Below the pieces are notes generated by a model. The model was not told the DNA's origin and made no database searches. It saw only the letters and a program-made list of their open reading frames with translations. A DNA stretch of 64,000 nucleotides from Aromatoleum toluolicum (lineage in GTDB: Bacteria; Pseudomonadota; Gammaproteobacteria; Burkholderiales; Rhodocyclaceae). The translations under genes were made by a program, and so were the position numbers. Below, in pieces: positions 47,825 through 63,558 of this stretch. Numbering within the stretch: the stretch's first letter is position 1; the number at the start of each line of letters is the position of its first letter. The DNA is taken from contig NZ_WTVS01000017.1 in the NCBI RefSeq assembly GCF_012911005.2, positions 1 through 64,000 of the forward strand, given 5' to 3'.

Positions 47825-48826
47825 TCAGCGCATCGCGGCGGCGTCGCGGGCGGCCTTGAGGGCCGCGGCACGCTGCCTGGCCAGATCCATCAGCGGCGGA
47901 TAGGGGCCGTAGCGGTGCTGGTCGGCCGAGGCGCCGTCGACGTAGGGCGGGAAGGCGGCATCCACGGGCTTGTTCCAGCGCGCCGGGAAGTCGTTCTCGA
48001 GGCCGGCCTTGATCGGGCGCGACTTCGACAGCACATAGCCGGCGACGTCGAAGGCTTCGTCGTCGCTCAGGACCGGGGCCACGTGGGTGGTGCCCTGCGG
48101 CATGTTGTGCCTGATGAAGGCGGCCGCGGTCAGCATGCGGTTCATGCCGGCGCCGTTGTTGAAGGTGTCCTTGCCCCACAGCGGCGGGAATACATAACCC
48201 TCGGCGTCGCCGACCTTGCCGCGGCGCTGGCCCTGGCCGTCCACGCCGTGGCAGGCGGCGCAATTCCTGGCATACACCGCCTCGCCGGCGACGAGGTCGG
48301 CGCGGCGGTCGGGCACCTTGATCTGCTTCGCCCCGGCGCCCTCGACCTTCGCGCCGACCGGTACGCCGCGGGACATGTAATGGATGTAAGCGGCAAAGGC
48401 CTTCATCTCGCGCGACTCGAGTGGCAGCGCCTTGCCGTTCATGCTGCGCTCCATGCAGCCGTTCACGCGTTCCTCGACCGAGCTGATGGCGTCTTCACGT
48501 GCGCGGTACTGCGGGAAGGTCGCGGAAACGCCGACCCAGGGCATCGCGTAGGGCTTGGTGGCTTCGTTCTGGTGGCAGGACGTGCAGGCGAGGTTGTTGC
48601 CGGCGAAGCGCATGCTGCGCTCCTGCACTTCCGGTCCGATGACGGCGAACGTGCGGGTCGTGAGTTCGTGGCCGTAGCGCACGAGGTCGCCGTAGGCGTC
48701 CTTCGGCAGCTTGTCCAGCGAGGGGGCGGGACGGTCGATCAGGCTGAGCGTCGGGGCTTCCTGGGCGAGCGCGGGCGTCGCCGCAAGCAGCAACCCGAGG
48801 CTGGACGCGACGATACGTGCTTTCAT
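47825..48826 (-). CDS. Dihaem cytochrome c (TsdA-like)
   Basis: 333-aa periplasmic cytochrome with a signal peptide (MKARIVASSLGLLLAATPALA) and two haem sites: CTSCH near residue 81 and CAACH near 195. The layout (SMRFAGNNLACTSCHQNEATKPYAMPWVGV, then a second C4-type domain with GVDGQGQRRGK) resembles the thiosulfate dehydrogenase TsdA/SoxXA-like family. Whether thiosulfate is the substrate cannot be told. The upstream region 48843-48895 is unusually AT-rich and likely holds the promoter; GGAGAGA precedes the ATG. Confidence 0.88.
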   Translation of the reverse strand: MKARIVASSLGLLLAATPALAQEAPTLSLIDRPAPSLDKLPKDAYGDLVRYGHELTTRTFAVIGPEVQERSMRFAGNNLACTSCHQNEATKPYAMPWVGVSATFPQYRAREDAISSVEERVNGCMERSMNGKALPLESREMKAFAAYIHYMSRGVPVGAKVEGAGAKQIKVPDRRADLVAGEAVYARNCAACHGVDGQGQRRGKVGDAEGYVFPPLWGKDTFNNGAGMNRMLTAAAFIRHNMPQGTTHVAPVLSDDEAFDVAGYVLSKSRPIKAGLENDFPARWNKPVDAAFPPYVDGASADQHRYGPYPPLMDLARQRAAALKAARDAAAMR

Positions 48827-49087: not shown

Positions 49088-51160
<2,073 letters not shown>

Positions 51161-51318
51161 AAGTTGCGACACGTTACGCCAAAGCTTGGTGCGTGTAAAT
51201 CACCAAAAATCGGGACGTGACGTTCTATTACTGCGATATTCGTCGGAAAGCGGCGCCGGGCCGTGATTGCGGTCGCAAGGGGGCCGTCGCAACTTCCCGC
51301 GGAGGCGGGCGGGGCACA
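51161..51318 (-). promoter_or_regulatory. Probable thiC promoter region
   Basis: 157 bases between the thiD stop and the riboswitch, locally AT-rich at 51170-51240. No convincing -35/-10 pair can be assigned by eye. Because the riboswitch lies downstream of thiD, only thiC appears to be under its control. Confidence 0.4.
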
Positions 51319-52158
51319 TCAGGCCCCCGGCCACCAGCGGTGAAAGTGATGCACGGGGCCGTGCCCCTTGCCGACCGACAGTGCGCCGGAAGCCGCGATC
51401 GCGCGCAGCAGGTAGTCGCGCGCGTCGCGTACCGCCGCTTCGACCGGACGGAAGCCTCCGGCGTGCTGTGGGAGCAACGCGGCGATCGCCGACGACAGGG
51501 TGCAGCCGGTGCCGTGCGTGTTCTTCGTCTCGATGCGCGGCGACGGCAGCTCGATCATGCGGTCGCCGTCGAACAGCAGGTCCACGACCTCGCTGCCGGG
51601 GAGGTGACCGCCCTTCAACAGCACCCAGCGCTCGGACGACAGCGGCAGCATCTCGCGCAGCCGTTCGGCAGCGCGGTACATCTCCTTCACTGTCTCGGGC
51701 GGGCGCTGTTCGAGGAGCACGCCGGCCTCCGGCAGGTTGGGCGTGATCATGAAGCTGCGCGGCAGCAGCGCCTCGATCAGCATCGCGACGGCGTTGCGTG
51801 CGAGCAGGTGGTCGCCGCTCTTCGCGACCATCACCGGGTCGCACACGACGAAGGGCGCGTCGAAATGCGCGAGCCGGTCGGCGACCGTCGCGACGATCTC
51901 CGCACTGCCGAGCATGCCGAGCTTCACCGCGTGGATCGCGACGTCGGCGAACAGCGTGTCGATCTGCAGGCGCAGGAAATCGGTCGGCGGGGTATGCACG
52001 CCGGTCACCGCCTGCGTGTTCTGCGCCGTCAGCGCGGCGACGACGCCGCAGCCGTAGGCGCCGAGCGCGGAGAAGGTCTTGATGTCGGCGAACACGCCGG
52101 CCCCGCCGCTGGGGTCGACGCCGGCGATGCTGACGACGTTGGGAATCTGGCGCTGCAC
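51319..52158 (-). CDS. thiD: Hydroxymethylpyrimidine/phosphomethylpyrimidine kinase
   Basis: 279-aa canonical ThiD that phosphorylates HMP and HMP-P. Intact motifs are AGVDPSGGAGVFADIKTF, KLGMLGS, CDPVMVAKSG, TPNLPEAGVLL and the catalytic KNTHGTGCTLSSAIAA. The gene is upstream of thiC on the same strand, separated by the thiC riboswitch. It contrasts with the degenerate paralogue at 34194-35159. Confidence 0.96.
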   Translation of the reverse strand: MQRQIPNVVSIAGVDPSGGAGVFADIKTFSALGAYGCGVVAALTAQNTQAVTGVHTPPTDFLRLQIDTLFADVAIHAVKLGMLGSAEIVATVADRLAHFDAPFVVCDPVMVAKSGDHLLARNAVAMLIEALLPRSFMITPNLPEAGVLLEQRPPETVKEMYRAAERLREMLPLSSERWVLLKGGHLPGSEVVDLLFDGDRMIELPSPRIETKNTHGTGCTLSSAIAALLPQHAGGFRPVEAAVRDARDYLLRAIAASGALSVGKGHGPVHHFHRWWPGA

Positions 52159-52412: not shown

Positions 52413-52487
52413 GAGGGGTGTGCCGGGCGGGCAGCGATCGGTGCCGTCCGCTCGCAGTGCAAGCAACACACAACGAGGAGACATTCA

Positions 52488-53378
52488 ATGCACAAGAAAC
52501 AGTCCGGCCGCCGTCGCGCCGTCGTCCCGCCGCGGCCCTGGCGGGTGGCTCTCGTCGCCGCCGCCCTCGGTGCGGTGGCGCCGGTCCAGGCGCAAGTCAC
52601 GCTCGACGTGATCGGGCCGCACGAGTACGACCTGCCGGTCGACTTCAAGCCCTTCAACGTCTTCGTGCAGTACGCCACCTTCCAGGACGGCGATCGCCAG
52701 TGGGACGGCGATGGCGACCGGCGGCGCGCGGCCAGGACGCGCACGATCGTCGGCCTGTCGAAGTACGTGCGCTTCTGGACGCCGGAATCGAACCCGAAGA
52801 TCGGGCTCGCGTACGAGATCATCGTCCCGGAAGTCGGCGTGCGGAACTCGGACACGCGCAGCTCGGCGAGCGGCATCGGCGACCCGATCACCGGCTTCGC
52901 GGCCTGGTACAAGCCGAGCGCGAACTCCACCCTGGGCTTCCAGACCTTCATGCAGGTGCCGGTCGGCGACCAGGACATCGGCGGCGGCGACGTGTGGAAG
53001 AACCTGTCGAGCGTCTTCTGGGACGTGCAGTTCGGCAAGCTGACCTACACGGCGGACGCGGGTTTCGTGTTCTTCGGCGAATCGACCGCGGCGGACGCGA
53101 CGCCGGGGACGCTGTTCCACACCAATCACCGGCTGGGCTACCAGATCGACGACGCGATCGAGCCCTTCATCGCACTCGATTACGAACGCCAGCAAGGCTG
53201 GAAGAACCGCGCCGCGGGCGTGAAGCTGCCCGAGAGCCACGAAACGACCGCCGGCATCGGCGTGATGTTCAAGTACTACGGCAACCAGTCGATCACCGTG
53301 CGCTACTCGCGCGGCATCGACGGCGAAAGCCATGGGGCGACGGACAGCCTCAACCTGAAGTACGCCTACGCCTGGTAG
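52488..53378 (+). CDS. Predicted outer-membrane channel (phenol-degradation MetA type)
   Basis: 296-aa exported protein of the MetA-pathway/transporter class. A long basic signal region (RRRAVVPPRPWRVALVAAALG) ends at APVQAQ. The mature part is rich in beta strands with aromatic girdles (NVFVQYATFQDGD, ITGFAAWYKPSANSTLGFQTFMQVPVGDQ quoted in part) and ends in an aromatic residue (LKYAYAW). GAGGAG precedes ATG at 52488. It is first gene ahead of the PQQ dehydrogenase, so it may admit the alcohol substrate; the substrate itself is unknown. Confidence 0.8.
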   Translation: MHKKQSGRRRAVVPPRPWRVALVAAALGAVAPVQAQVTLDVIGPHEYDLPVDFKPFNVFVQYATFQDGDRQWDGDGDRRRAARTRTIVGLSKYVRFWTPESNPKIGLAYEIIVPEVGVRNSDTRSSASGIGDPITGFAAWYKPSANSTLGFQTFMQVPVGDQDIGGGDVWKNLSSVFWDVQFGKLTYTADAGFVFFGESTAADATPGTLFHTNHRLGYQIDDAIEPFIALDYERQQGWKNRAAGVKLPESHETTAGIGVMFKYYGNQSITVRYSRGIDGESHGATDSLNLKYAYAW

Positions 53379-53407: not shown

Positions 53408-55069
53408 ATGAAGACCAAGAAAGTGATCGTCACGCTCACGTGCGCGGGGGCATTGTCGGGTGCGGCGTGGGCCGCGAGCGGGCCGGGTTTCGACGACCCG
53501 GACAACTGGCCGCAGTACCACCGCAGCTTCAACGCGTGGCGCTTCAGCCCGCTACAAGCCATCAACCGCGACAACGTCGGGCGGCTGAAGGTCGCGTGGA
53601 TCCACCAGCCCGGCAATATCACGCATGGCATCCAGGCGACACCGATCGTGATCGACGGGGTGCTGTACTACGTATCGGCGAACAACAACGTGTGGGCGGT
53701 GGATGCCGCCAGCGGCCGCACGCTGTGGCGCTACGAGGCGAAGCTCGACCCGCTGGCGAAGCAGACTTTCTATGCCGCGGCGAGCCGCGGCGTGACGGTC
53801 GGGCGCGGCAAGGTGTATCTCGGCACGCTCGACGGGCGCTTCGTCGCGCTCGACCAGAAGACCGGCAAGGAGCTGTGGGCGACGCAGCTCACCGACCTGA
53901 AGACGCAATATGGCGCGCTCTTCTCGGCGCCGCCGCAGCTCGCGGGCGACGTGCTCTTCGGCGGCACGACCGGGGGCGATCAGCCGATCAGCGGCAAGAT
54001 CTACGCGGTCAATGCCGACACCGGCAAGCCCGCGTGGACCTTCGAGATCCTGCGCGACGACCCCGAGAGCTGGCCGGGCGACAGCCGCAAGCGCGGCGGC
54101 GGCAGCGCGTGGATGCCCGGAACCTACGATCCACGCAGCGACACGATCTACATCGGCACCTCGAACGCCGCGCCGGACTACTTCAACGCCGACCGCAAGG
54201 GCGACAACAAGTACACGGCGAGCCTGCTCGCGCTCGACCCGAAGAGCGGCAAGCTGAAGTGGGCGCGGCAGGAGATCCCGCACGACTCGTGGGATTTCGA
54301 CTCGGCCTACGAGGCGCTGATGGTGAAGGGGGCGGACGGCGAGGACGTGATCGTGCATCTGAACAAGAGCGGCTTCGTGTTCGTGATGGACAAGGACGAC
54401 GGCAAGCTCGAGAACGTGTGGCAGTTCGCGCAGCACGTGAACTGGGTCAAGGGCATCGACCCGAAGACCGGCCGGCTGATCGATCCGATCTATCCGGAGG
54501 AGGGCAAGAAGAAGCTGTTCTGCCCGAACCTCCTGGGTGCGCGCAGCTGGAACCACGGCGCCTACAACCCCGGCACCGGCCTGTGGTACTCGCATGCGAT
54601 GGAGGTATGCAACGAGGTCGTCGCCGGGCGTGACGATCCGGCCAACCTCACGGCGATCTCGTCGCTGTCGCTCGGCATCGACGAGATCAAACTCGTGCCG
54701 CCGCCCGCGGACAAGCCGCATGGCCGGCTCGATGCGCGCGATCCGCTGACCGGCAAGGTCAAGTGGAGCATCCGCTACGACATGCCGCCGCTCTCCAGCG
54801 TGCTGACGACGGCCGGTGGGCTGGTGTTTACCGGTGACATGGAAGGGCGCATCTACGCCTACGACGCCGACGACGGCAAGGAGCTGTGGCGCTTCAGCGC
54901 CGGTTCGGGGCTGCGCGGTGGACCGGTGAGCTACGCGGCGGGCGGGCGCCAGTACATCGTCGTGCCGACGGGACTCGGTTCGCACGCGCCGGGCTTCCTC
55001 GCCGGGGCCTATCCGCAGATCAAGGACCTGCCGGGCGGCGCGGCGCTGATCGCGTTCACCGTGGATTGA
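53408..55069 (+). CDS. PQQ-dependent alcohol dehydrogenase, lanthanide-type active site
   Basis: 553-aa periplasmic eight-bladed propeller quinoprotein with a signal peptide ending AAWAA. Tryptophan-docking motifs (GRTLWRYEAK, GKELWATQL, GKELWRFSAG) are present. The catalytic Asp296 is followed by Asp298 (WDFD); Asp at +2 is the signature of lanthanide-dependent enzymes (XoxF/PedH), while Ca2+ enzymes have Ala or Ser. The vicinal Cys-Cys of typical methanol/ethanol dehydrogenases is replaced by Phe121-Tyr122 (TFYAAASRGV). It lacks a fused haem domain, so an external cytochrome is needed. GGAGGAG precedes the ATG. Its co-regulation with aco genes suggests a short-chain alcohol or diol substrate. 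Confidence 0.93.
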   Translation: MKTKKVIVTLTCAGALSGAAWAASGPGFDDPDNWPQYHRSFNAWRFSPLQAINRDNVGRLKVAWIHQPGNITHGIQATPIVIDGVLYYVSANNNVWAVDAASGRTLWRYEAKLDPLAKQTFYAAASRGVTVGRGKVYLGTLDGRFVALDQKTGKELWATQLTDLKTQYGALFSAPPQLAGDVLFGGTTGGDQPISGKIYAVNADTGKPAWTFEILRDDPESWPGDSRKRGGGSAWMPGTYDPRSDTIYIGTSNAAPDYFNADRKGDNKYTASLLALDPKSGKLKWARQEIPHDSWDFDSAYEALMVKGADGEDVIVHLNKSGFVFVMDKDDGKLENVWQFAQHVNWVKGIDPKTGRLIDPIYPEEGKKKLFCPNLLGARSWNHGAYNPGTGLWYSHAMEVCNEVVAGRDDPANLTAISSLSLGIDEIKLVPPPADKPHGRLDARDPLTGKVKWSIRYDMPPLSSVLTTAGGLVFTGDMEGRIYAYDADDGKELWRFSAGSGLRGGPVSYAAGGRQYIVVPTGLGSHAPGFLAGAYPQIKDLPGGAALIAFTVD

Positions 55070-55149: not shown

Positions 55150-55180
55150 CCGACTTTGCATTGCCATGGATGAATCGATC

Positions 55181-55603
55181 ATGTCTGCGTCGACTTTCCT
55201 CACGGTCGTGCCGCCAGTGCGCCGGCTATTGTTGTTGAGCCTCCTTGCCGGCTTGTCCTTCACCTGCGTGGCGGTCGGACCCGCGGCAACGGATGCGGCG
55301 CGCGAGGCCGCCCCCTCGGGAGGTTCGCTCGCCGCACCTTTCGACCTCGCCGATCCCGCGCGCATCGAGGTGGGGCGCAAGCGCTTCAATAAGACCTGCG
55401 CGGGCTACTGCCACGGTTTCGAGGGGGTCGGCGGGCGCGCGCCGGATTTCAAGGGCCGCAAGGACCTGCCTGTGCAGGTGATGTTCGAGACGATCACGCA
55501 AGGGCGCGTCGGCGCGGACGTGATGCCACCGTGGGGCACGGCCTTCAGCGCAGAGCAGATCTGGGAGCTGGTGGCCTACCTGCAGTACCTCGGGACGCAG
55601 TAG
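55181..55603 (+). CDS. Cytochrome c with a CX3CH haem motif
   Basis: 140-aa exported protein with a signal/anchor segment (VRRLLLLSLLAGLSFTCVAVG) and a small cytochrome c domain: GRKRFNKTCAGYCHGFEGVGGRAPDFKG, then VMPPWGTAFSAEQIWELVAYLQYLG (parts). The haem site is Cys73-Ala-Gly-Tyr-Cys77-His78, three residues between the cysteines instead of two; Met of VMPPWG is the probable sixth ligand. It is a likely electron acceptor for the PQQ dehydrogenase. Start uncertain: ATG at 55166 is also in frame, and neither has a strong ribosome site. Confidence 0.82.
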   Translation: MSASTFLTVVPPVRRLLLLSLLAGLSFTCVAVGPAATDAAREAAPSGGSLAAPFDLADPARIEVGRKRFNKTCAGYCHGFEGVGGRAPDFKGRKDLPVQVMFETITQGRVGADVMPPWGTAFSAEQIWELVAYLQYLGTQ

Positions 55604-55660: not shown

Positions 55661-55695
55661 CTCATGCGTCGCCTCATGCGTCGCCTCATGCGTCG
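55660..55695. repeat. Three tandem 12-bp repeats over the acoR stop codon
   Basis: Three exact copies of CCTCATGCGTCG in a row. On the minus strand each copy reads CGACGCATGAGG, so every unit contains Asp-Ala-stop in the acoR frame. The true acoR stop is in the first unit read and two further in-frame stops follow. Confidence 0.9.
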
Positions 55696-57728
55696 AACTC
55701 GCGGCGGTTGGGACTGACGATCTGCAGTCGCGCCATCTTGCGGTAGAAGGTCGCGCGCGACATGCCGAGTTCGCGTGCGGTGACCGTGACCTGCCAGTGA
55801 TGGCGGCGCAGCGCGGCGAGCATCTGGGCGCGCAGTTCCGCTTCGGTATTGGACAGTGCGCGGCGGGGCGCGTCCGCGTGGAACGGCAGGCGCAGCGGCG
55901 GGGCGTCTTCGAAGGCGTCGACGCGCGCCGTCGCCGCGTGGCCGCCGGGCCGCGCGCGGAAGAGGTCCGGTGGCAGGTGTTCGAGCTCGATCGCGTCGCC
56001 GTCGGCGATCGCGCACGCGTAGCGCATCGCGTGGCGCAGCTGGCGGATGTTGCCGGGCCAGTCGTGGCGGGCGAGGGCGTCGAGCGTTGCGGCGGCGAGG
56101 TGGAGATCCGGGCGATCCATCGTTGTCGCTTCCTCGCGCGTCACTTTGTCGATCACGCCGCGGATGTCCTCGCGTTCGCGCAGCGGCGGCAGCAGGAAGA
56201 CGGCACCGTTGAGGCGGTAATACAGGTCCTCGCGGAAGCGACCCTGCTGCACGAGTTCCGGCAGGTCCTGGTGGGTCGCGCAGACGACGTGCAGGCGCAC
56301 CGGGGTCGGCGTTTCCGCGCCCAGTGGCAGCACTTCGCCTTCGGCGAGTACGCGCAGCAGGCGGCTCTGCAGTTGCAGCGGCATGTCGCCGATCTCGTCG
56401 AGGAAGAGCGTGCCGCCGTCCGACTGCAGGATCTTGCCGCGCACGCCCTTGCTGCGTGCGCCGGTGAAGGCGCCGTCGCGATAGCCGAAGAGCTCGCTCT
56501 CGATCAGCGTCTCGGGGATCGCCGCGCAGTTGAGCGCAACGAAGGGCTTGGCGCGGCGATCGCTGTAGTCGTGGATCGCGCGCGCAAACGCTTCCTTGCC
56601 GGTGCCGGTCTCGCCGAGCAGCATCACCGGGATGTCGCGGTTGGCGACCTTCAGCGCGCGTTCGACGTTGCCGCGCAGGCGGGCGTCGTCGAGCGCGAGG
56701 TGCGAGAAACCGGGGATGTTCGCGCAGGCGCCGTCCTCGGCCGCGTCACACGCGGCTTGCGGCAGTGCGAGCCCGCTGCGCGAGCGCGGTGCCGGGGCGC
56801 GCAGGATCGCGAACAGGCGCTCGCCATTCGCCGTGAGGCGCAGCGGGAAGGCCTGTCCGGGCTGCGCGTGCGCGGTGGCGAGGATCTCGTTCGTCGTGCA
56901 CTCGAAGAGCTCGTGGATGAAGGCCGGCGCGGGGCCATCGCCGCCATCGAGCAGTTCCAGCCGCGCACGACGGTTGCCGCCGACGAGGCGGCCGCTGTCG
57001 TCGAAGGCGACGAGGTAGTCGGTCTGCACGCTGAGGTATTCGGCAAGGCGCCCGAGCTGCAGAACCCAGTAGGGACGCAGGTTGTACCACGCGAAGGCGT
57101 TCTCGATCTGCTGCGCGCGGTCGAGCACGAGGCGATAGACGAGGAGCTGGCTTTCGCGCTGCGCGGGCGCGTGCAAGGCGGTGGCGTCGAGCACTGCGAC
57201 CGGATGGTCGTCCGGGCCGAAGATCGGCACCGAGCTGCAACTGAACGCGATGTTGTGCGAGCGGAAATGCTCGTCGCGATGGACCAGCATCGGCTGGCCG
57301 TCGATCAGCGCGGTGCCGACGCCGCAGGTGCCTTCGAGCGCCTCGGACCAGCAGGTGCCGACGCGGAAGCCTTCCGCCTTGAATTCCTTGTCCAGTTCGG
57401 GGACGGTGCGAAAGTCGACGGTCACGCCCTCCGCGTCGGTGAGCAGCACGCAGTAATTCACCGCCCGCAGCTGTGTGTGCAGGCGATCCATGCCTTCGCG
57501 CGCGATGCGCATGAAGGCGTCGATGCGGTCGCGGTGTTCGCGCAGCTCCTGCGCGGTGACAACGCGCGGGGTGGTCGCGAGCGCCGGATCGACCTGGTGG
57601 GTGCTGAGCGACCGCCGCCACGAGCGCGCAAGGCGCTCGAAACTACTGTCGCGCCCGAGCGGCAGGCCGCGCTCGACGACGTCGATCACGCGTCCGACGT
57701 GCTGGACGATCTCCTGAGGTCTCCTCAT
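55686..57728 (-). CDS. acoR: Sigma-54-dependent activator AcoR
   Basis: 680-aa enhancer-binding protein. The N-terminal GAF-type sensor region (residues 1-320) includes GTCGVGTALIDGQPMLVHRDEHF (part). The AAA+ domain has Walker A GETGTGKEAFARAIH, the sigma-54 contact loop GAFTGA, and Walker B GGTLFLDEIGDMP. The Fis-type HTH lies at the end (VTVTARELGMSRATFYRKMARL). It is transcribed divergently from acoABC, and GTCTC/GAGAC sites lie in the shared upstream region. Its ligand is presumably acetoin or a breakdown product, by analogy with known AcoR. Confidence 0.94.
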   Translation of the reverse strand: MRRPQEIVQHVGRVIDVVERGLPLGRDSSFERLARSWRRSLSTHQVDPALATTPRVVTAQELREHRDRIDAFMRIAREGMDRLHTQLRAVNYCVLLTDAEGVTVDFRTVPELDKEFKAEGFRVGTCWSEALEGTCGVGTALIDGQPMLVHRDEHFRSHNIAFSCSSVPIFGPDDHPVAVLDATALHAPAQRESQLLVYRLVLDRAQQIENAFAWYNLRPYWVLQLGRLAEYLSVQTDYLVAFDDSGRLVGGNRRARLELLDGGDGPAPAFIHELFECTTNEILATAHAQPGQAFPLRLTANGERLFAILRAPAPRSRSGLALPQAACDAAEDGACANIPGFSHLALDDARLRGNVERALKVANRDIPVMLLGETGTGKEAFARAIHDYSDRRAKPFVALNCAAIPETLIESELFGYRDGAFTGARSKGVRGKILQSDGGTLFLDEIGDMPLQLQSRLLRVLAEGEVLPLGAETPTPVRLHVVCATHQDLPELVQQGRFREDLYYRLNGAVFLLPPLREREDIRGVIDKVTREEATTMDRPDLHLAAATLDALARHDWPGNIRQLRHAMRYACAIADGDAIELEHLPPDLFRARPGGHAATARVDAFEDAPPLRLPFHADAPRRALSNTEAELRAQMLAALRRHHWQVTVTARELGMSRATFYRKMARLQIVSPNRREFDA

Positions 57729-58048: not shown

Positions 58049-58125
58049 GAAGGGAGCCCAGGTCCGCGGCATTCGCTGCAGCCGCTGCGGGACTCGAAAC
58101 CCTTCAAATCAAGCGAGGAGCAATG

Positions 58126-59100
58126 ATGAGCGAGACACTGAACCGCGAGGGCCTGCTCAAGGCCTACCGGATCATGCGCACGATCCGCGAGTTCGAAGAG
58201 CGCGTGCATACCGATTTCGCCACCGGCGAGATCCCCGGCTTCGTGCATCTGTATGCCGGCGAGGAAGCCTCGGCGACCGGCGTGTGCATGCACCTGACCG
58301 GCGCCGACTACATCGCCAGCACCCACCGCGGCCACGGCCACTGCATCGCGAAAGGCGTGGATCCGGTCGGGATGATGGCGGAGATCTGGGGCAAGGCGAC
58401 CGGTACCTGCAAGGGCAAGGGCGGCTCGATGCACATCGCGGACCTGTCGGTCGGCATGCTCGGCGCCAACGGCATCGTCGGCGGCGGCGGTCCGCTGATC
58501 TGCGGCACGGCGCTGGCGGCGAAGATTCGCGGCACGAAGGACGTCGGTGTGTGCTTCTTCGGCGACGGCGCGTCGAATCAGGGGACGATCTTCGAGGCGA
58601 TGAACCTCGCCGCGGTGTGGAAGCTGCCGGCGATCTTCGTCGCCGAGAACAACGGCTACGCCGAGGCGACCTCGTCGAAGTACTCGGTGCCCTGCGAGCA
58701 CATCGCCGACCGCGCGCCGGCCTTCGGCATGCCGGGCGTGATCGTCGACGGCTTCGACTTCTTCGCCGTGCACAAGGCGGCGGGCGAGGCGATCAAGCGT
58801 GCACGCGAAGGCGGCGGTCCGACGCTGCTGGAAGTGAAGCTCTCGCGCTACTACGGCCACTTCGAGGGCGACCAGCAGACCTACCGCGCGCCGGGTGAGG
58901 TGCAGACGCTGCGCGAAACCAAGGACTGCCTGATGCAGTTCCGCCGCCGCGTGACCGCCGACGGCGAGATCACGGACGCGCAGCTCGACGCGATCGACGG
59001 CGAGGTGAAGACGCTGATCGACGACTCGGTGGTGCGCGCCAAGGCCGATCCGAAGCCCGCGCCGGCCGAGCTGCTGACCGACGTCTACGTATCGTACTGA
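58126..59100 (+). CDS. acoA: Acetoin dehydrogenase E1 alpha subunit
   Basis: 324-aa TPP-dependent E1 alpha. Family motifs are the RTIREFEERVHTDFATGEIPGF start, HLYAGEEASATGV, STHRGHGHCIAKG, GKGGSMHIAD and the TPP-Mg motif GDGASNQGTIFEAMNLA ending VAENN. These favour acetoin:DCPIP oxidoreductase alpha over pyruvate dehydrogenase. GAGGAG supports ATG 58126 over 58123. The enzyme cleaves acetoin to acetaldehyde and a hydroxyethyl unit passed to AcoC. Confidence 0.94.
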   Translation: MSETLNREGLLKAYRIMRTIREFEERVHTDFATGEIPGFVHLYAGEEASATGVCMHLTGADYIASTHRGHGHCIAKGVDPVGMMAEIWGKATGTCKGKGGSMHIADLSVGMLGANGIVGGGGPLICGTALAAKIRGTKDVGVCFFGDGASNQGTIFEAMNLAAVWKLPAIFVAENNGYAEATSSKYSVPCEHIADRAPAFGMPGVIVDGFDFFAVHKAAGEAIKRAREGGGPTLLEVKLSRYYGHFEGDQQTYRAPGEVQTLRETKDCLMQFRRRVTADGEITDAQLDAIDGEVKTLIDDSVVRAKADPKPAPAELLTDVYVSY

Positions 59101-59129: not shown

Positions 59130-60140
59130 ATGGCAAGAAAGATCACCTACCAGCAGGCCATCAACGAGGCGCTGGACCAGGAAATGGCGCGCGACCCGCG
59201 CGTCATCATCATGGGCGAGGACAACGCCGGGGGCGCCGGTGCGCCCGGCGAGGAGGACGCGTGGGGCGGCGTGCTCGGTGTCACCAAGGGCCTCTTCCAC
59301 AAGTACCCGGGCCGCGTGCTCGACACGCCGATCTCCGAATCCGGCTACGTCGGCGCCGCGGTCGGGGCAGCGTGCAACGGCCTGCGCCCGGTCGCCGAGC
59401 TGATGTTCGTCGACTTCATCGGCGTGTGCTTCGACCAGATCTACAACCAGGCCGCGAAATTCCGCTACATGTTCGGCGGCAAGGCCGAGACGCCGGTCGT
59501 GATCCGCGCGATGTACGGCGCGGGCTTCCGGGCCGCGGCGCAGCACTCGCAGTGCCTGTACAACATGTTTACGCACATCCCGGGCCTCAAGGTCGTCGTG
59601 CCGTCGAATCCGTATGACGCGAAGGGCCTGCTGATCCAGGCTATCCGCGACAACGACCCGGTTATCTTCCTCGAGCACAAGGTGCTGTACACGATGGAAG
59701 GCGAGGTGCCGGAGGAGAGCTACACCGTGCCCTTCGGCGAGGCCAACGTCGCGCGCGAGGGCGACGACGTGACGATCGTCGCCTTCGGTCGCATGGTGAA
59801 TCAGGCGCTGACCGCCGCCGCCGCGCTGCAGAAGCAGGGCATCCACTGCGAGGTGATCGACCCGCGCACGACCTCGCCGCTCGACGAGGACACGATCCTC
59901 GAAAGCGTCGAGAAGACCGGGCGGCTGGTGATCGTCGACGAGTCGACGCCCCGCTGCAGCATGGCGTCCGACATCGCCGGCATCGTCGCGCAGAAGGCCT
60001 TCGGCGCGCTGAAAGCGCCGATCGAGCAGGTCACCGCACCGCACGTCCCCGTGCCCTTCAGCGACGCGCTGGAAGATCTTTACGTTCCGAGTCCGGCCCG
60101 CATCGAAGCGGCCGTCACCCGAGTCAAGGAGTACCGCTGA
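59130..60140 (+). CDS. acoB: Acetoin dehydrogenase E1 beta subunit
   Basis: 336-aa transketolase-like beta subunit (ARKITYQQAINEALDQEMARDPRVIIMGEDNAGG). It has GVTKGL-like LGVTKGLFHKYPGRVLDTPISESGYVGAAVGAA, FIGVCFDQIYNQAAKFRYMFGG and the C-terminal EVIDPRTTSPLDEDTI (parts). AAGGAG lies upstream of the ATG. Its stop overlaps the acoC start by one base, consistent with equimolar complex subunits. Confidence 0.95.
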   Translation: MARKITYQQAINEALDQEMARDPRVIIMGEDNAGGAGAPGEEDAWGGVLGVTKGLFHKYPGRVLDTPISESGYVGAAVGAACNGLRPVAELMFVDFIGVCFDQIYNQAAKFRYMFGGKAETPVVIRAMYGAGFRAAAQHSQCLYNMFTHIPGLKVVVPSNPYDAKGLLIQAIRDNDPVIFLEHKVLYTMEGEVPEESYTVPFGEANVAREGDDVTIVAFGRMVNQALTAAAALQKQGIHCEVIDPRTTSPLDEDTILESVEKTGRLVIVDESTPRCSMASDIAGIVAQKAFGALKAPIEQVTAPHVPVPFSDALEDLYVPSPARIEAAVTRVKEYR

Positions 60141-61252
60141 TGTCTGCGATTCATAAGCTCACCATGCCCAAGTGGGGCCTCTCGATGCAGGAGGGGAAGG
60201 TGAATGGCTGGTTGAAGGAGATCGGTGAGAGCATCGCCGTGGGCGAGGAGATCGTCGAGGTCGAGAGCGAGAAGATCGCCGGTGCGGTCGAGGCCTCGGT
60301 CGCCGGCGTGCTGCGGCGCCAGATCGCCTCGGCCGAGGACGTGCTCCCGGTGGGCGGCCTCTTGGGCATCGTCGCCGATGCCGAAGTGCCGGATGCCGAC
60401 ATCGACGCCGCGATCGCGGACTTCCTCGCCAACTTCACCCCGGATACCGGCGACGAGGAAGACGCCGGGCCGAAGCCGGAAAAGATCGAGGTCGGCGGCC
60501 GCAAGCTGCGCTACTTGAAGCGGGGGGAGGGTGGCGAGCCGATGATCCTGATCCACGGCTTCGGCGGCGACCTCAACAACTGGCTCTTCAACCACGAGGC
60601 GCTCGCGGCCGATCGCACGGTGTACGCGCTCGATCTGCCGGGCCACGGTGAATCGGCGAAGGACGTCGGCGACGGCTCGCTCGCGAGCCTCGCCGCGGCG
60701 GTGGTCGGCTTCATGGACGCCGTCGGGCTCGACGCCGCGCATCTCGTCGGCCACTCGATGGGCGGCGCGGTGTCGATGGCGGTCGCGCAGGCAGCGCCGG
60801 CGCGCGTGCGCTCGCTGACGCTGATCGCAAGCGCCGCGCTCGGTGACGAGATCAACGGCGCCTACATCGACGGCTTCGTCGGCGCCAACGACCGTCGGGC
60901 CCTGAAGCCCGTGCTGAGCCAGCTCTTCTCCGACGCCGGCCTCGTCACGCGCCAGCTCATCGACGACATGCTGAAGTACAAGCGCCTCGAAGGCGTCGAT
61001 GCGGCGCTGCGCACGATCAGCGACACGCTCTTCGAGCACGGCCGCCAGGCGACCCGCCTCGCGCCGGTTGCGGCCGGCCTGGGCAAGCCGGTGCTGGTGA
61101 TTTGGGGCGAGAACGACCAGATCATCCCGGTCGCCCATGCACGCGCCGCCGGCAAGGATGCGCTCGTTGAGGTACTGACGGGGCAGGGGCACATGGTGCA
61201 GATGGAGGCAGCGAACGAGGTGAATCGGCTGATTGCGCGGTTCCTGGGGTAA
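60140..61252 (+). CDS. acoC: Acetoin dehydrogenase E2 (lipoyl + alpha/beta hydrolase)
   Basis: 370-aa AcoC-type acyltransferase. The N-terminal lipoyl domain carries the lipoylated Lys45 (VEVESEKIAGAVEA). After a short linker, the C-terminal part is an alpha/beta hydrolase-fold domain (MILIHGFGGDLNNWLFNHEAL, nucleophile Ser206 in LVGHSMGGAVSM, His in TGQGHMVQME) instead of the usual CAT-type E2 core. This architecture is diagnostic of acetoin systems. No E3 gene is present nearby, so the housekeeping dihydrolipoyl dehydrogenase is probably shared. Confidence 0.95.
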   Translation: MSAIHKLTMPKWGLSMQEGKVNGWLKEIGESIAVGEEIVEVESEKIAGAVEASVAGVLRRQIASAEDVLPVGGLLGIVADAEVPDADIDAAIADFLANFTPDTGDEEDAGPKPEKIEVGGRKLRYLKRGEGGEPMILIHGFGGDLNNWLFNHEALAADRTVYALDLPGHGESAKDVGDGSLASLAAAVVGFMDAVGLDAAHLVGHSMGGAVSMAVAQAAPARVRSLTLIASAALGDEINGAYIDGFVGANDRRALKPVLSQLFSDAGLVTRQLIDDMLKYKRLEGVDAALRTISDTLFEHGRQATRLAPVAAGLGKPVLVIWGENDQIIPVAHARAAGKDALVEVLTGQGHMVQMEAANEVNRLIARFLG

Positions 61253-61552
61253 TCGATCGGCACTGAGTTACGTGCCGTCCGGTTGAGTTCAGCACGGACA
61301 CTCCCTCCCCTTCAAGGGGAGGGCTGGGGTGGGGATGGGTTTCGGACGAGATGGTGCACGCACCGGTTAATCCCGACGGAAACCCATCCCCCTCCTAACC
61401 AGGAGTCTCGGCTGCGCCTCGCCGCTTCACTGGCGGCGAGCAGTGCTCGCCGAAACCCCTGTTTCGCCCCCTTGAAGGGGGATGAACACGGTGCCCGATC
61501 AGATTCCCGGGGCACTCAAGCCTGCCCAGTCTGCCCACACGGAAAACACGTC
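61253..61552. repeat. Intergenic inverted repeat region between acoC and lipA
   Basis: 300 bases without a gene. A near-perfect 21-nt palindrome (CCCTCCCCTT/AAGGGGAGGG around a single base) lies at 61303-61323, and CCCCCTT-G-AAGGGGG at 61467-61481. Between them GGATGGGTT (61333-61341) is mirrored by AACCCATCC (61381-61389). The palindromes, each linked to a GGATGGGTT-type word, look like two copies of a short interspersed repeat in inverted orientation. Confidence 0.7.
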
Positions 61553-62506
61553 ATGCATTCCCCACTTCCCGGCACCGGCGCGCGCGGCGCGGAAAAGCTC
61601 GCCCGCATTCCGGTCCGCATCGACCCGGCCCTCGCGTCCGCCCCTCGTCCTGCTTGGCTGCGCGCACGGGACCCCGGCACGCCCGAAGTGCTGCGCCTCC
61701 AATCCGTGCTGCGCGAGCACAATCTCCACACCGTCTGCGAAGAGGCCGCCTGCCCGAACATCGGCGAGTGCTTCGGCAGCGGCACGGCGACCTTCATGAT
61801 CCTCGGCAGCATCTGCACGCGCCGCTGCCCCTACTGCGACGTCGCGCACGGCCGCCCGCTGCCGCCCGACCCGGATGAGCCGCGCGAACTTGCCGCGGTG
61901 ATCGCCGCGATGCGCCTGCGCTACGTCGTAATCACCTCGGTCGACCGCGACGACCTGCGCGACGGCGGCGCCGGTCATTTCGCCGACTGCATCACCGCCG
62001 TCCGGGAGGCCGTGCCCGCCATCCGCATCGAAGTGCTGACGCCGGACTTCCGCGGCCGCGAGGCCCGCGCGCTCGACCTTCTCGCCGCCGCGCCGCCCGA
62101 CGTCTTCAACCACAACATCGAGACCGTGCCGCGCCTCTACCGCGCCGCGCGTCCCGGCGGCGACTACGCCGGCTCGCTCGCGCTGATCGAAGCGGTGAAG
62201 CGCCGCTTGCCGGACGTGCCGACCAAGTCCGGCCTGATGCTGGGCCTGGGCGAGACCGACGACGAAGTGCTCGCGACGCTGCGCGACCTGCGTGCGCACG
62301 GCTGCGACATCGTGACGCTCGGGCAGTACCTGCGCCCGTCGAGCGCGCACCTGCCAGTGGACCGCTACGTCTCGCCCACGCAGTTCGTGCACCTGCGCGA
62401 GCAGGTGCTTGCGCTGGGTTTCGCGGAAGTCGCTGCGGGGCCGCTGGTGCGTTCGTCCTATCGCGCGGACGAAGTCGCGCGCGCCGCAACGAGGGTGCCG
62501 GCATGA
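61553..62506 (+). CDS. lipA: Lipoyl synthase
   Basis: 317-aa radical SAM enzyme inserting two sulfurs into octanoyl-E2. The auxiliary cluster cysteines are in [12 protein letters not shown], the SAM cluster in [10 protein letters not shown], and [40 protein letters not shown] and [15 protein letters not shown] are conserved. ATG at 61553 gives the normal length; the open frame upstream runs through a repeat. A dedicated lipA beside acoABC would serve the AcoC lipoyl domain. It overlaps thiS by four bases. Confidence 0.95.
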
Positions 62507-62709: not shown

Positions 62710-63558
62710 ATGGAGCACAGGATGGAAGCACGCGGAATGCACGCGCAATCCGCGGGAGATGCCCCGCTCGTGATCGGCGGCCGGGCCTACCGCTCGCGCC
62801 TGCTGGTCGGCACCGGCAAGTACCGCGACTTCGCGCACACGCGCGCGGCGATCGACGCCAGCGGCGCCGAGATCGTCACCATCGCGATCCGCCGCACCAA
62901 TCTCGGTCAGCACCCCGGCGAGCCCAACCTGCTCGACGTGCTGCCGCCGACGCGCTTCACGATCCTGCCCAACACGGCCGGCTGCTACACGGCGGACGAC
63001 GCCGTCCGCACGCTGCGCCTCGCCCGCGAACTCCTCGACGGCCACGACCTCGTGAAGCTCGAAGTGCTCGGCGACCGCGACACGCTGTATCCGAACATGC
63101 CCGAGACGCTGCGCGCCGCCGAACGCCTCGTGAAGGACGGCTTCCGCGTGATGGTCTACTGCGCCGACGACCCGGTGCAGGCGCGCATCCTCGAAGATCT
63201 CGGCTGCGTCGCGATCATGCCGCTCGCGAGCCTGATCGGCTCGGGCATGGGCATCCTCAATCCGTGGAACCTGGGCCTCATCATCGACCGCGCGAAAGTG
63301 CCGGTGATCGTCGATGCCGGCGTCGGCACCGCCTCGGACGCCGCGATCGCGATGGAACTCGGCTGCGACGGCGTGCTGATGAACACCGCGATCGCCGCGG
63401 CGGGCGATCCGGTCAGGATGGCCGACGCGATGGGCAAGGCCGTCGTGGCCGGGCGCGAGGCCTTCCTTGCCGGGCGCATGCCGCGCAAGTTCTACGGGGC
63501 GTCGCCGAGTTCGCCGACGAGCGGCCTCATCGGGCGCGCCGACGGGGGCGGGGGCTGA
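62710..63558 (+). CDS. thiG: Thiazole synthase
   Basis: 282-aa TIM-barrel enzyme forming the thiazole phosphate from DXP, dehydroglycine and ThiS thiocarboxylate. Conserved motifs are [45 protein letters not shown], the Schiff-base Lys in LVKLEVLGD, and [31 protein letters not shown] (parts). The start is at 62710, with GGGAGG seven bases upstream. About 18 extra N-terminal residues are longer than usual; ATG at 62737 is an alternative. Confidence 0.95.

Follow-up and report, generated by a model that had tools for sequence, protein, structure and literature searches.

For haem attachment, CX2CH is taken as the norm in c-type cytochromes. Cytochrome c550 (PedF/ExaB, TIGR04494), the acceptor of PedE, PedH and ExaA, is a small periplasmic protein encoded beside a PQQ alcohol dehydrogenase (PMC12997753), an arrangement shared by the cytochrome described here, P0001; the match between P0001 and TIGR04494 is nevertheless weak (E = 1.9e-9; 37.5 bits, below the equivalog cut-off of 122). 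Moreover, ExaA has a vicinal Cys-Cys pair that is linked to electron transfer to c550 (PMC12997753), and work cited in that source reports the disulfide as essential for efficient transfer, whereas the dehydrogenase next to P0001 lacks it. The methanol dehydrogenase acceptors cytochrome cL and XoxG (7c90 and 6onq) have the same fold as P0001 (Foldseek probability of 1.00 for both) and an analogous role; in contrast, their identity to P0001 is 21–23% and their dehydrogenases form a different clade. Cytochrome cL and XoxG use CX2CH spacing. Type II quinohaemoprotein alcohol dehydrogenases (1yiq and 1kv9) likewise combine a cytochrome with a PQQ propeller, and 1yiq is the best PDB sequence match (E = 2.4e-5); however, they are fused chains with CX2CH (as read from the 1yiq alignment) and a vicinal Cys-Cys, while the present pair consists of separate chains with CX3CH and no Cys-Cys.

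Atypical CX3CH sites have been reported from genomes for ImcH and some CymA homologues (PMC6295460), which are multihaem, membrane-anchored proteins of quinol oxidation, in contrast to P0001, a class I monohaem partner of a quinoprotein. In the available text of open-access papers that mention CX3CH or CXXXCH together with PQQ, a scope that leaves most subscription journals outside, CXXXCH is merely listed among the patterns of one haem-finding pipeline and a CX3CH family of quinoprotein partners is not described. The parts are already known, in that CX3CH occurs in other cytochromes and quinoprotein-cytochrome pairs are classical; what is found here is a real, conserved variant.

A CX3CH cytochrome gene beside a quinoprotein dehydrogenase

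The window, which is the whole stretch of 64,000 nucleotides of Aromatoleum toluolicum DNA that was analysed, contains a monohaem class I c-type cytochrome gene at 55166–55603 on the forward strand, coding for the 145 amino acids of P0001. The open frame is intact, with an alternative ATG at 55181, and the N-terminus is hydrophobic and looks by eye like a Sec signal peptide. The codons TGC GCG GGC TAC TGC CAC at 55397–55414 (+) encode Cys78-Ala-Gly-Tyr-Cys82-His83, a CX3CH motif that is kept in relatives, and the predicted distal haem ligand is Met120 (55523–55525, +) in VMPPWG, which is invariant in 23 of 23 aligned domains. A sequence-only reading of the window had described the three-residue spacer, which holds base for base, as well as the open frame and the VMPPWG ligand loop, both of which are present.

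P0001 scores 54.1 bits against the Pfam model PF13442 (Cytochrome_CBB3; cut-off of 27), and its alignment and AlphaFold2 model contain the C-terminal Met ligand and the class I helical fold. Both cysteines and the histidine of the canonical CXXCH site are present at a different spacing; because of this departure, P0001 is, as judged from its sequence, a variant of the Cytochrome_CBB3 family rather than a standard member. The genome has 35 PF13442 matches, of which 30 were read after five weak ones without a locus were left out; 29 of the 30 are CX2CH and the single CX3CH is P0001. A degenerate form of the motif likewise occurs only once in the 6.16-Mb genome. The motif is neither a chance occurrence nor a sequencing error or frameshift, because P0001 passes the Cytochrome_CBB3 cut-off and the same motif recurs in the open frames of many other species, and the earlier judgement that an error was unlikely is thereby upheld. 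A further cytochrome domain, with CAACH, lies at 48032–48295 (–) in a 340-aa frame, about 4 kb upstream of a Phenol_MetA_deg-type gene.

That gene (52485–53378, +; PF13557, 85.9 bits, cut-off of 22) belongs to an outer-membrane family and is located just upstream of the partner quinoprotein dehydrogenase, P0002 (53408–55069, +; ATG at 53408), which has no vicinal Cys-Cys and carries an Asp at the lanthanide position (WDFD). P0002 ends 96 bases before the cytochrome gene on the same strand, so that the earlier placement of the cytochrome next to a PQQ-type dehydrogenase stands. Convergent with the cytochrome gene is a gene for a sigma-54 activator (55686–57728, –) with profile matches to GAF, sigma-54 and Fis domains, a putative AcoR-like regulator by our own naming. 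It is followed by genes for an acetoin dehydrogenase-type E1-alpha (58123–59100, +; 333 bits against the pyruvate dehydrogenase E1-alpha model TIGR03182, under its cut-off of 394), an E1-beta (59130–60140, +; 357 bits against the pyruvate dehydrogenase E1-beta subfamily model NF006667, cut-off of 321) and an acetoin dehydrogenase E2, acoC (60140–61252, +); the names acoA and acoB for the E1 genes are taken from context. The E2 scores 507 bits against the equivalog model NF011457 (cut-off of 307), in line with an acetoin dehydrogenase cluster. A search for a sigma-54 promoter shared across the operons returned one match, compared to 1.65 expected by chance, and lends no support to one.

The acetoin dehydrogenase complex uses thiamine diphosphate and lipoate as cofactors. 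The cluster is flanked by thiC and thiD (49088–52158) and by the lipoyl synthase gene lipA (61283–62506, +; TIGR00510, 415 bits, cut-off of 310). Further downstream, 62710–63558 looks by eye like a gene for thiazole synthase ThiG, where NCBIfam gives weak PdxS-type matches only.

The AlphaFold2 model of P0001, built from 23 aligned domains (from 22 of 26 family genes), has a mean pLDDT of 77.6; 70 of its 145 residues reach at least 90 and, according to block means, nearly all of them are in the cytochrome domain. Foldseek returned nothing at E ≤ 0.001 for this model, and the fold call is based on probability, TM-score and structural alignment. In particular, the model aligns with CcoP of the cbb3 oxidase (3mk7_C; Z of 11.6, rmsd of 2.5, 85 aligned) and with cytochrome cL (7c90_C; Z of 9.2, rmsd of 2.3, 85 aligned), and also with c6 structures; the predicted fold is that of an ordinary class I cytochrome. 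A model for the CX2CH cytochromes described below (14 of 17 used) has a mean pLDDT of 68.6, and a comparison of the two models, both of them haem-less, gave no usable difference at the motif.

Conservation of the motif and of the pairing

Within the same family, 21 of 150 genomes match at E ≤ 1e-10, the own genome included, and their loci comprise 26 distinct genes, of which 23 are CX3CH and three CX2CH when repeated loci are counted once. To avoid a bias toward the cytochrome motif, the dehydrogenase alignment alone was then used as the query against 84,980 species genomes, resulting in 124 relatives, the best 80 of which were retained. A cytochrome gene lies just downstream of the dehydrogenase in 79 of these best 80 of 124 loci, the remaining one (L136) being at a contig end. 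The motif is CX3CH in 62 of the 79 partner cytochromes (best 80 of 124), from genera that include Aromatoleum, Zoogloea, Methyloversatilis, Azohydromonas, Ralstonia, Ideonella, Hyphomicrobium and Bradyrhizobium, and CX2CH in 17, from genera that include Neptuniibacter, Amphritea, Enterovibrio, Massilia, Rugamonas and Skermanella. By domain layout, the same 79 loci divide into 39 with a single CX3CH, 22 with CX2CH then CX3CH, one with a double CX3CH and 17 with a single CX2CH; in the 22 mixed cases, a CX2CH haem domain at the N-terminus and a CX3CH haem domain at the C-terminus share a single chain (for example, L060, 5247–5936).

The spacer itself varies little. Across the 63 CX3CH motifs from the best 80 of 124 loci, position 1 is Ala in 59, position 2 is Gly or Ala in 61 and position 3 is Tyr in 62. 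The simplest description of the variant would be one small residue (Ala or Gly) inserted before a conserved Tyr, because the site is C-(V/A)-Y-C-H in the 17 loci with a single CX2CH. All 79 partner cytochromes have a haem site with two or three residues between the cysteines and none failed the pattern, although the pattern demanded both cysteines and the histidine, making their invariance partly one of construction; further, MP follows the haem motif in all 79 of the best-scoring cytochromes (best 80 of 124). The extra residue appears dispensable for the pairing, because 17 of the 79 relatives (best 80 of 124) pair with a CX2CH cytochrome that apparently does the same job.

At the level of the order, 17 of 399 genomes match, the own genome and G026 among them, and 20 new loci have a best domain that is CX3CH in 14 cases and CX2CH in six. 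Nine of the 14 CX3CH loci have a PQQ-type propeller match within 2.0–3.4 kb (in L143, on the opposite strand), and the five with CGGFCH (L148, L149, L151, L154 and L155) have no quinoprotein match in the surrounding 2.1–3.4 kb. The CGGFCH cytochrome at 1468–1866 of L151 has neighbours that look by eye like an NHL-type propeller and a selenophosphate synthase. Among 398 genomes drawn from across the phylum, the own genome alone matched.

The dehydrogenase and the descent of the motif

The window dehydrogenase scores 436 bits against TIGR03075 (PQQ_enz_alc_DH), below the subfamily cut-off of 480, and the dehydrogenases beside CX3CH cytochromes in 21 genomes (one each) score 407–454 bits, all of them likewise below it. 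Residues were compared after alignment with PedH (6zcv), using 62 CX3CH loci and the window, and 17 CX2CH loci with L055 and L056 added, where the 62 and 17 loci come from the best 80 of 124. In these rows, the vicinal Cys-Cys is replaced (Phe-Tyr/Leu-Phe) in 61 of 63 CX3CH partners, the other two being gapped, and in 19 of 19 CX2CH partners. A metal-ligand Glu is changed to Asp in 62 of 63 (one gapped) and 19 of 19, respectively, while the catalytic Asp and the metal Asn are retained in every row of both groups. An Asp two residues past the catalytic Asp marks lanthanide use; it is found in 62 of 63 CX3CH partners (one has Gly) and in 19 of 19 CX2CH partners, and its presence in the window dehydrogenase, as in XoxF and PedH, indicates that this enzyme is probably of the lanthanide type. 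A one-to-one tie between CX3CH and the loss of the dehydrogenase disulfide was considered and rejected; CX2CH partners lack the disulfide as well.

The gene pqqC is found in 19 of 21 carriers and in three of 20 non-carriers (the first 20 listed of 129 non-matching genomes, which is not a random sample). A second set, which shares at least one genome with the first, has it in 33 of 34 genome rows; searches for pqqC found none in the carriers G017 and G030 or in the genome of L117. Because of this distribution among the carriers and the second-set rows, PQQ is likely to be the cofactor that the dehydrogenase uses.

A quick dehydrogenase tree places the window together with 61 of 62 CX3CH loci on one side of a branch with an SH-aLRT of 99; the 62nd, L122 (Rhodomicrobium), sits among the CX2CH rows on a long branch. 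Constraining all 63 CX3CH rows together is not rejected (AU p of 0.29). A cytochrome tree, calculated with the residues between the cysteines cut out, requires four changes over 152 domains, with few columns and weak support; domains under 25 bits (20 for the own genome and for L052–L056), domains without the pattern, those shorter than 60 residues and duplicates had been dropped. In the reading favoured here, the extra residue is an inherited feature of this cytochrome lineage; CX3CH may have arisen by one gain with losses or by several gains.

The sequence-only reading had further suggested that CX3CH may define the cytochrome family of this dehydrogenase, an idea to be abandoned if all close homologues were CX2CH. 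The clade of the closest dehydrogenases (62 rows with the window) is CX3CH throughout, and to that extent the suggestion survives. It fails as a definition of the wider family, however, as 17 of 79 cytochromes beside the same disulfide-less dehydrogenase type (best 80 of 124) have CX2CH (CVYCH or CAYCH), and CX3CH also occurs beside other quinoproteins and in five order-level loci with no quinoprotein match in 2–3 kb.

Cytochrome c maturation systems in the carriers

CcmE (System I) and ResB (System II) were searched in 55 genome rows, with L120 left out and with G049 and L072 apparently the same genome; a ResB match was considered strong at E below 1e-80, and many of the genomes are drafts, making absence weak evidence. 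CcmE is found in 38 of the 43 CX3CH rows and a strong ResB in 12; 31 rows have CcmE and no strong ResB, seven have both and five have ResB only. These five are L093 (Azohydromonas lata), L100 (Ralstonia soli), two Ideonella rows (L107 and L108) and G032; in G032 the ResB match is incomplete and starts at base 4 of the contig. In another seven rows, including that of the window's genome, the ResB matches are weak, passing the Pfam cut-off with coverage of under a third of the profile; these were not counted as System II. The 12 CX2CH rows include eight with CcmE and five with a strong ResB. The candidate explanation that the motif is tied to one maturation system was rejected, as CX3CH carriers have System I, System II or both. 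The earlier assumption of haem attachment by Ccm suits the window's genome, which has System I (CcmE); in some other carriers, System II alone was detected. For L062 and L072, whose chains combine CX2CH and CX3CH, the genomes have CcmE and no ResB was found in them; System I would therefore serve both spacings there.

Linkage to acetoin-type genes

The neighbourhoods of 21 disulfide-less loci (8.8–19 kb) were compared to those of the best TIGR03075 dehydrogenase in 20 of the same 21 genomes (11.6–17.6 kb); the control set has no entry for G017, whose test locus is negative. Both acetoin dehydrogenase E1 subunits have homologues near 16 of 21 test loci and near none of the 20 controls. All 20 control dehydrogenases have the Cys-Cys, and no CX3CH is present among up to three best cytochrome matches for each. 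Seven of the 16 positive loci have E1 homologues with only 42–52% identity to those of the window, which could be part of a different complex. In the wider set (best 80 of 124), both E1 homologues are present in the DNA examined for 30 of 62 CX3CH loci and nine of 17 CX2CH loci; where 20 kb or more was covered, the counts are 16 of 23 and nine of 15, respectively. In Pseudomonas putida, PedE and PedH are reported to convert (2S,3S)-2,3-butanediol to acetoin, which is then cleaved by the acetoin dehydrogenase system (PMC8427195). Because of this analogy and the linkage to acetoin-type genes, the dehydrogenase of the present pair likely oxidises 2,3-butanediol or a comparable alcohol and hands the electrons to the CX3CH cytochrome.

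Proposed function and alternative explanations

The reading that we favour, and hold to be quite probable, is that P0001 is the dedicated periplasmic acceptor of a disulfide-less, probably lanthanide-type PQQ dehydrogenase, that its haem is attached through both cysteines and that the alcohol is most likely an acetoin-forming one. The dehydrogenase would oxidise an alcohol such as 2,3-butanediol in the periplasm; the adjacent class I cytochrome, with His83 and Met120 as its ligands, would take the electrons and hand them on toward an oxidase chain, and the neighbouring acetoin dehydrogenase complex would then cleave the acetoin. The haem would be bound via both CX3CH cysteines by the ordinary maturation machinery, here System I. 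The motif, its conservation, the genomic pairing, the clade structure, the dehydrogenase residues and the linkage to acetoin-type genes are observed; the two-cysteine attachment, the electron transfer between the two proteins, the metal and the substrate are inferred. The alternatives are partly compatible with this reading, and the likelihoods assigned to them are not shares of a single total.

The most serious of them concerns the extra residue itself, which could have arisen by neutral drift in one lineage and be a mark of ancestry with no functional consequence, an explanation that is compatible with the proposed pairing and substrate and that we place somewhat below an even chance. The compared active-site residues of the dehydrogenases are no guide to whether the partner is CX3CH or CX2CH, a single origin is not rejected by the AU test (p of 0.29) and the fold is ordinary, all of which agree with drift; on the other hand, CX3CH has been kept in 62 loci of many genera, its spacer is tightly conserved (Ala/Gly in 61 of 63 at position 2 and Tyr in 62 of 63 at position 3; both counts from the best 80 of 124) and the four changes in the cytochrome tree leave room for repeated gain. 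The trypanosome-type single-cysteine site has the form AXXCH, and the last five residues of the present motif, A-G-Y-C-H, resemble it, which raises the alternative that haem is attached through Cys82 only, with Cys78 free or in some other role. Cytochromes with one thioether are described for trypanosomes (PMC4158909). Yet none of the 79 partner cytochromes lacks the first cysteine (best 80 of 124; the pattern required it and none failed), it is present in 23 of 23 aligned domains, and the Ccm system of E. coli was reportedly found by Allen et al. in 2009 to attach haem correctly to CX3CH; attachment through Cys82 only is improbable. Even less credible, to the point that we give it hardly any weight, is a decaying gene whose site holds no covalent haem: the unusual spacing is all that was found to suggest it, against open frames and conserved ligands and gene position in 62 loci (best 80 of 124).

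The substrate is a separate matter, and it is somewhat unlikely that the quinoprotein acts on something else, for example another secondary alcohol or an aldehyde, with acetoin genes as frequent neighbours for other reasons. The 32 of 62 CX3CH loci that lack the E1 homologue pair in the DNA examined (best 80 of 124) are consistent with another substrate, as is the action of PedE and PedH on many alcohols (PMC8427195). However, the occurrence of E1 homologue pairs near 16 of 21 test loci, against none of 20 same-genome controls, argues for an acetoin-forming alcohol, as does the presence in the window cluster of an acetoin dehydrogenase E2 above its curated cut-off.

A bolder extension of the favoured reading, which we regard as unlikely, is that the pair would form a distinct electron-transfer module, in which a different route takes the place of the disulfide-dependent one of ExaA and the inserted residue shifts the haem edge or the potential of the acceptor to suit docking to a lanthanide-type dehydrogenase that feeds acetoin catabolism, and that the family would also serve a second, glucose-dehydrogenase-like quinoprotein. 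Apart from this extension, the monohaem CX3CH lineage and the 22 mixed-spacing chains are a natural test of the spacing that Systems I and II accept, and the mixed chains would be useful substrates for maturation studies. The disulfide-less dehydrogenase and its cytochrome could similarly be used to probe the role of the ExaA-type disulfide, and the locus hints that acetoin metabolism may have a lanthanide-dependent entry in the periplasm.

Other propeller-linked cytochromes

A second group of CX3CH cytochromes (CAAFCH, CADYCH, CADHCH and CAEYCH) likewise adjoins propellers. In five loci, a second quinoprotein with its own CX3CH cytochrome (CAAFCH or CAEYCH) lies a few kb from the first pair: L063 (5345–8133), L068 (6541–9320), L081 (3949–6617), L096 (6910–9662) and L122 (14638–17208). 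The second propeller in L081, the one that was tested, matches a membrane glucose dehydrogenase model best, with a score below the cut-off and an alignment that begins only at model position 150; the metal-ligand column comparison does not apply to a propeller of this type, and the idea that the CAAFCH-linked propeller had lost its metal ligands was dropped. A related cytochrome on a Skermanella plasmid also adjoins a propeller, whose annotation reads no more than 'PQQ-binding-like beta-propeller repeat protein'.
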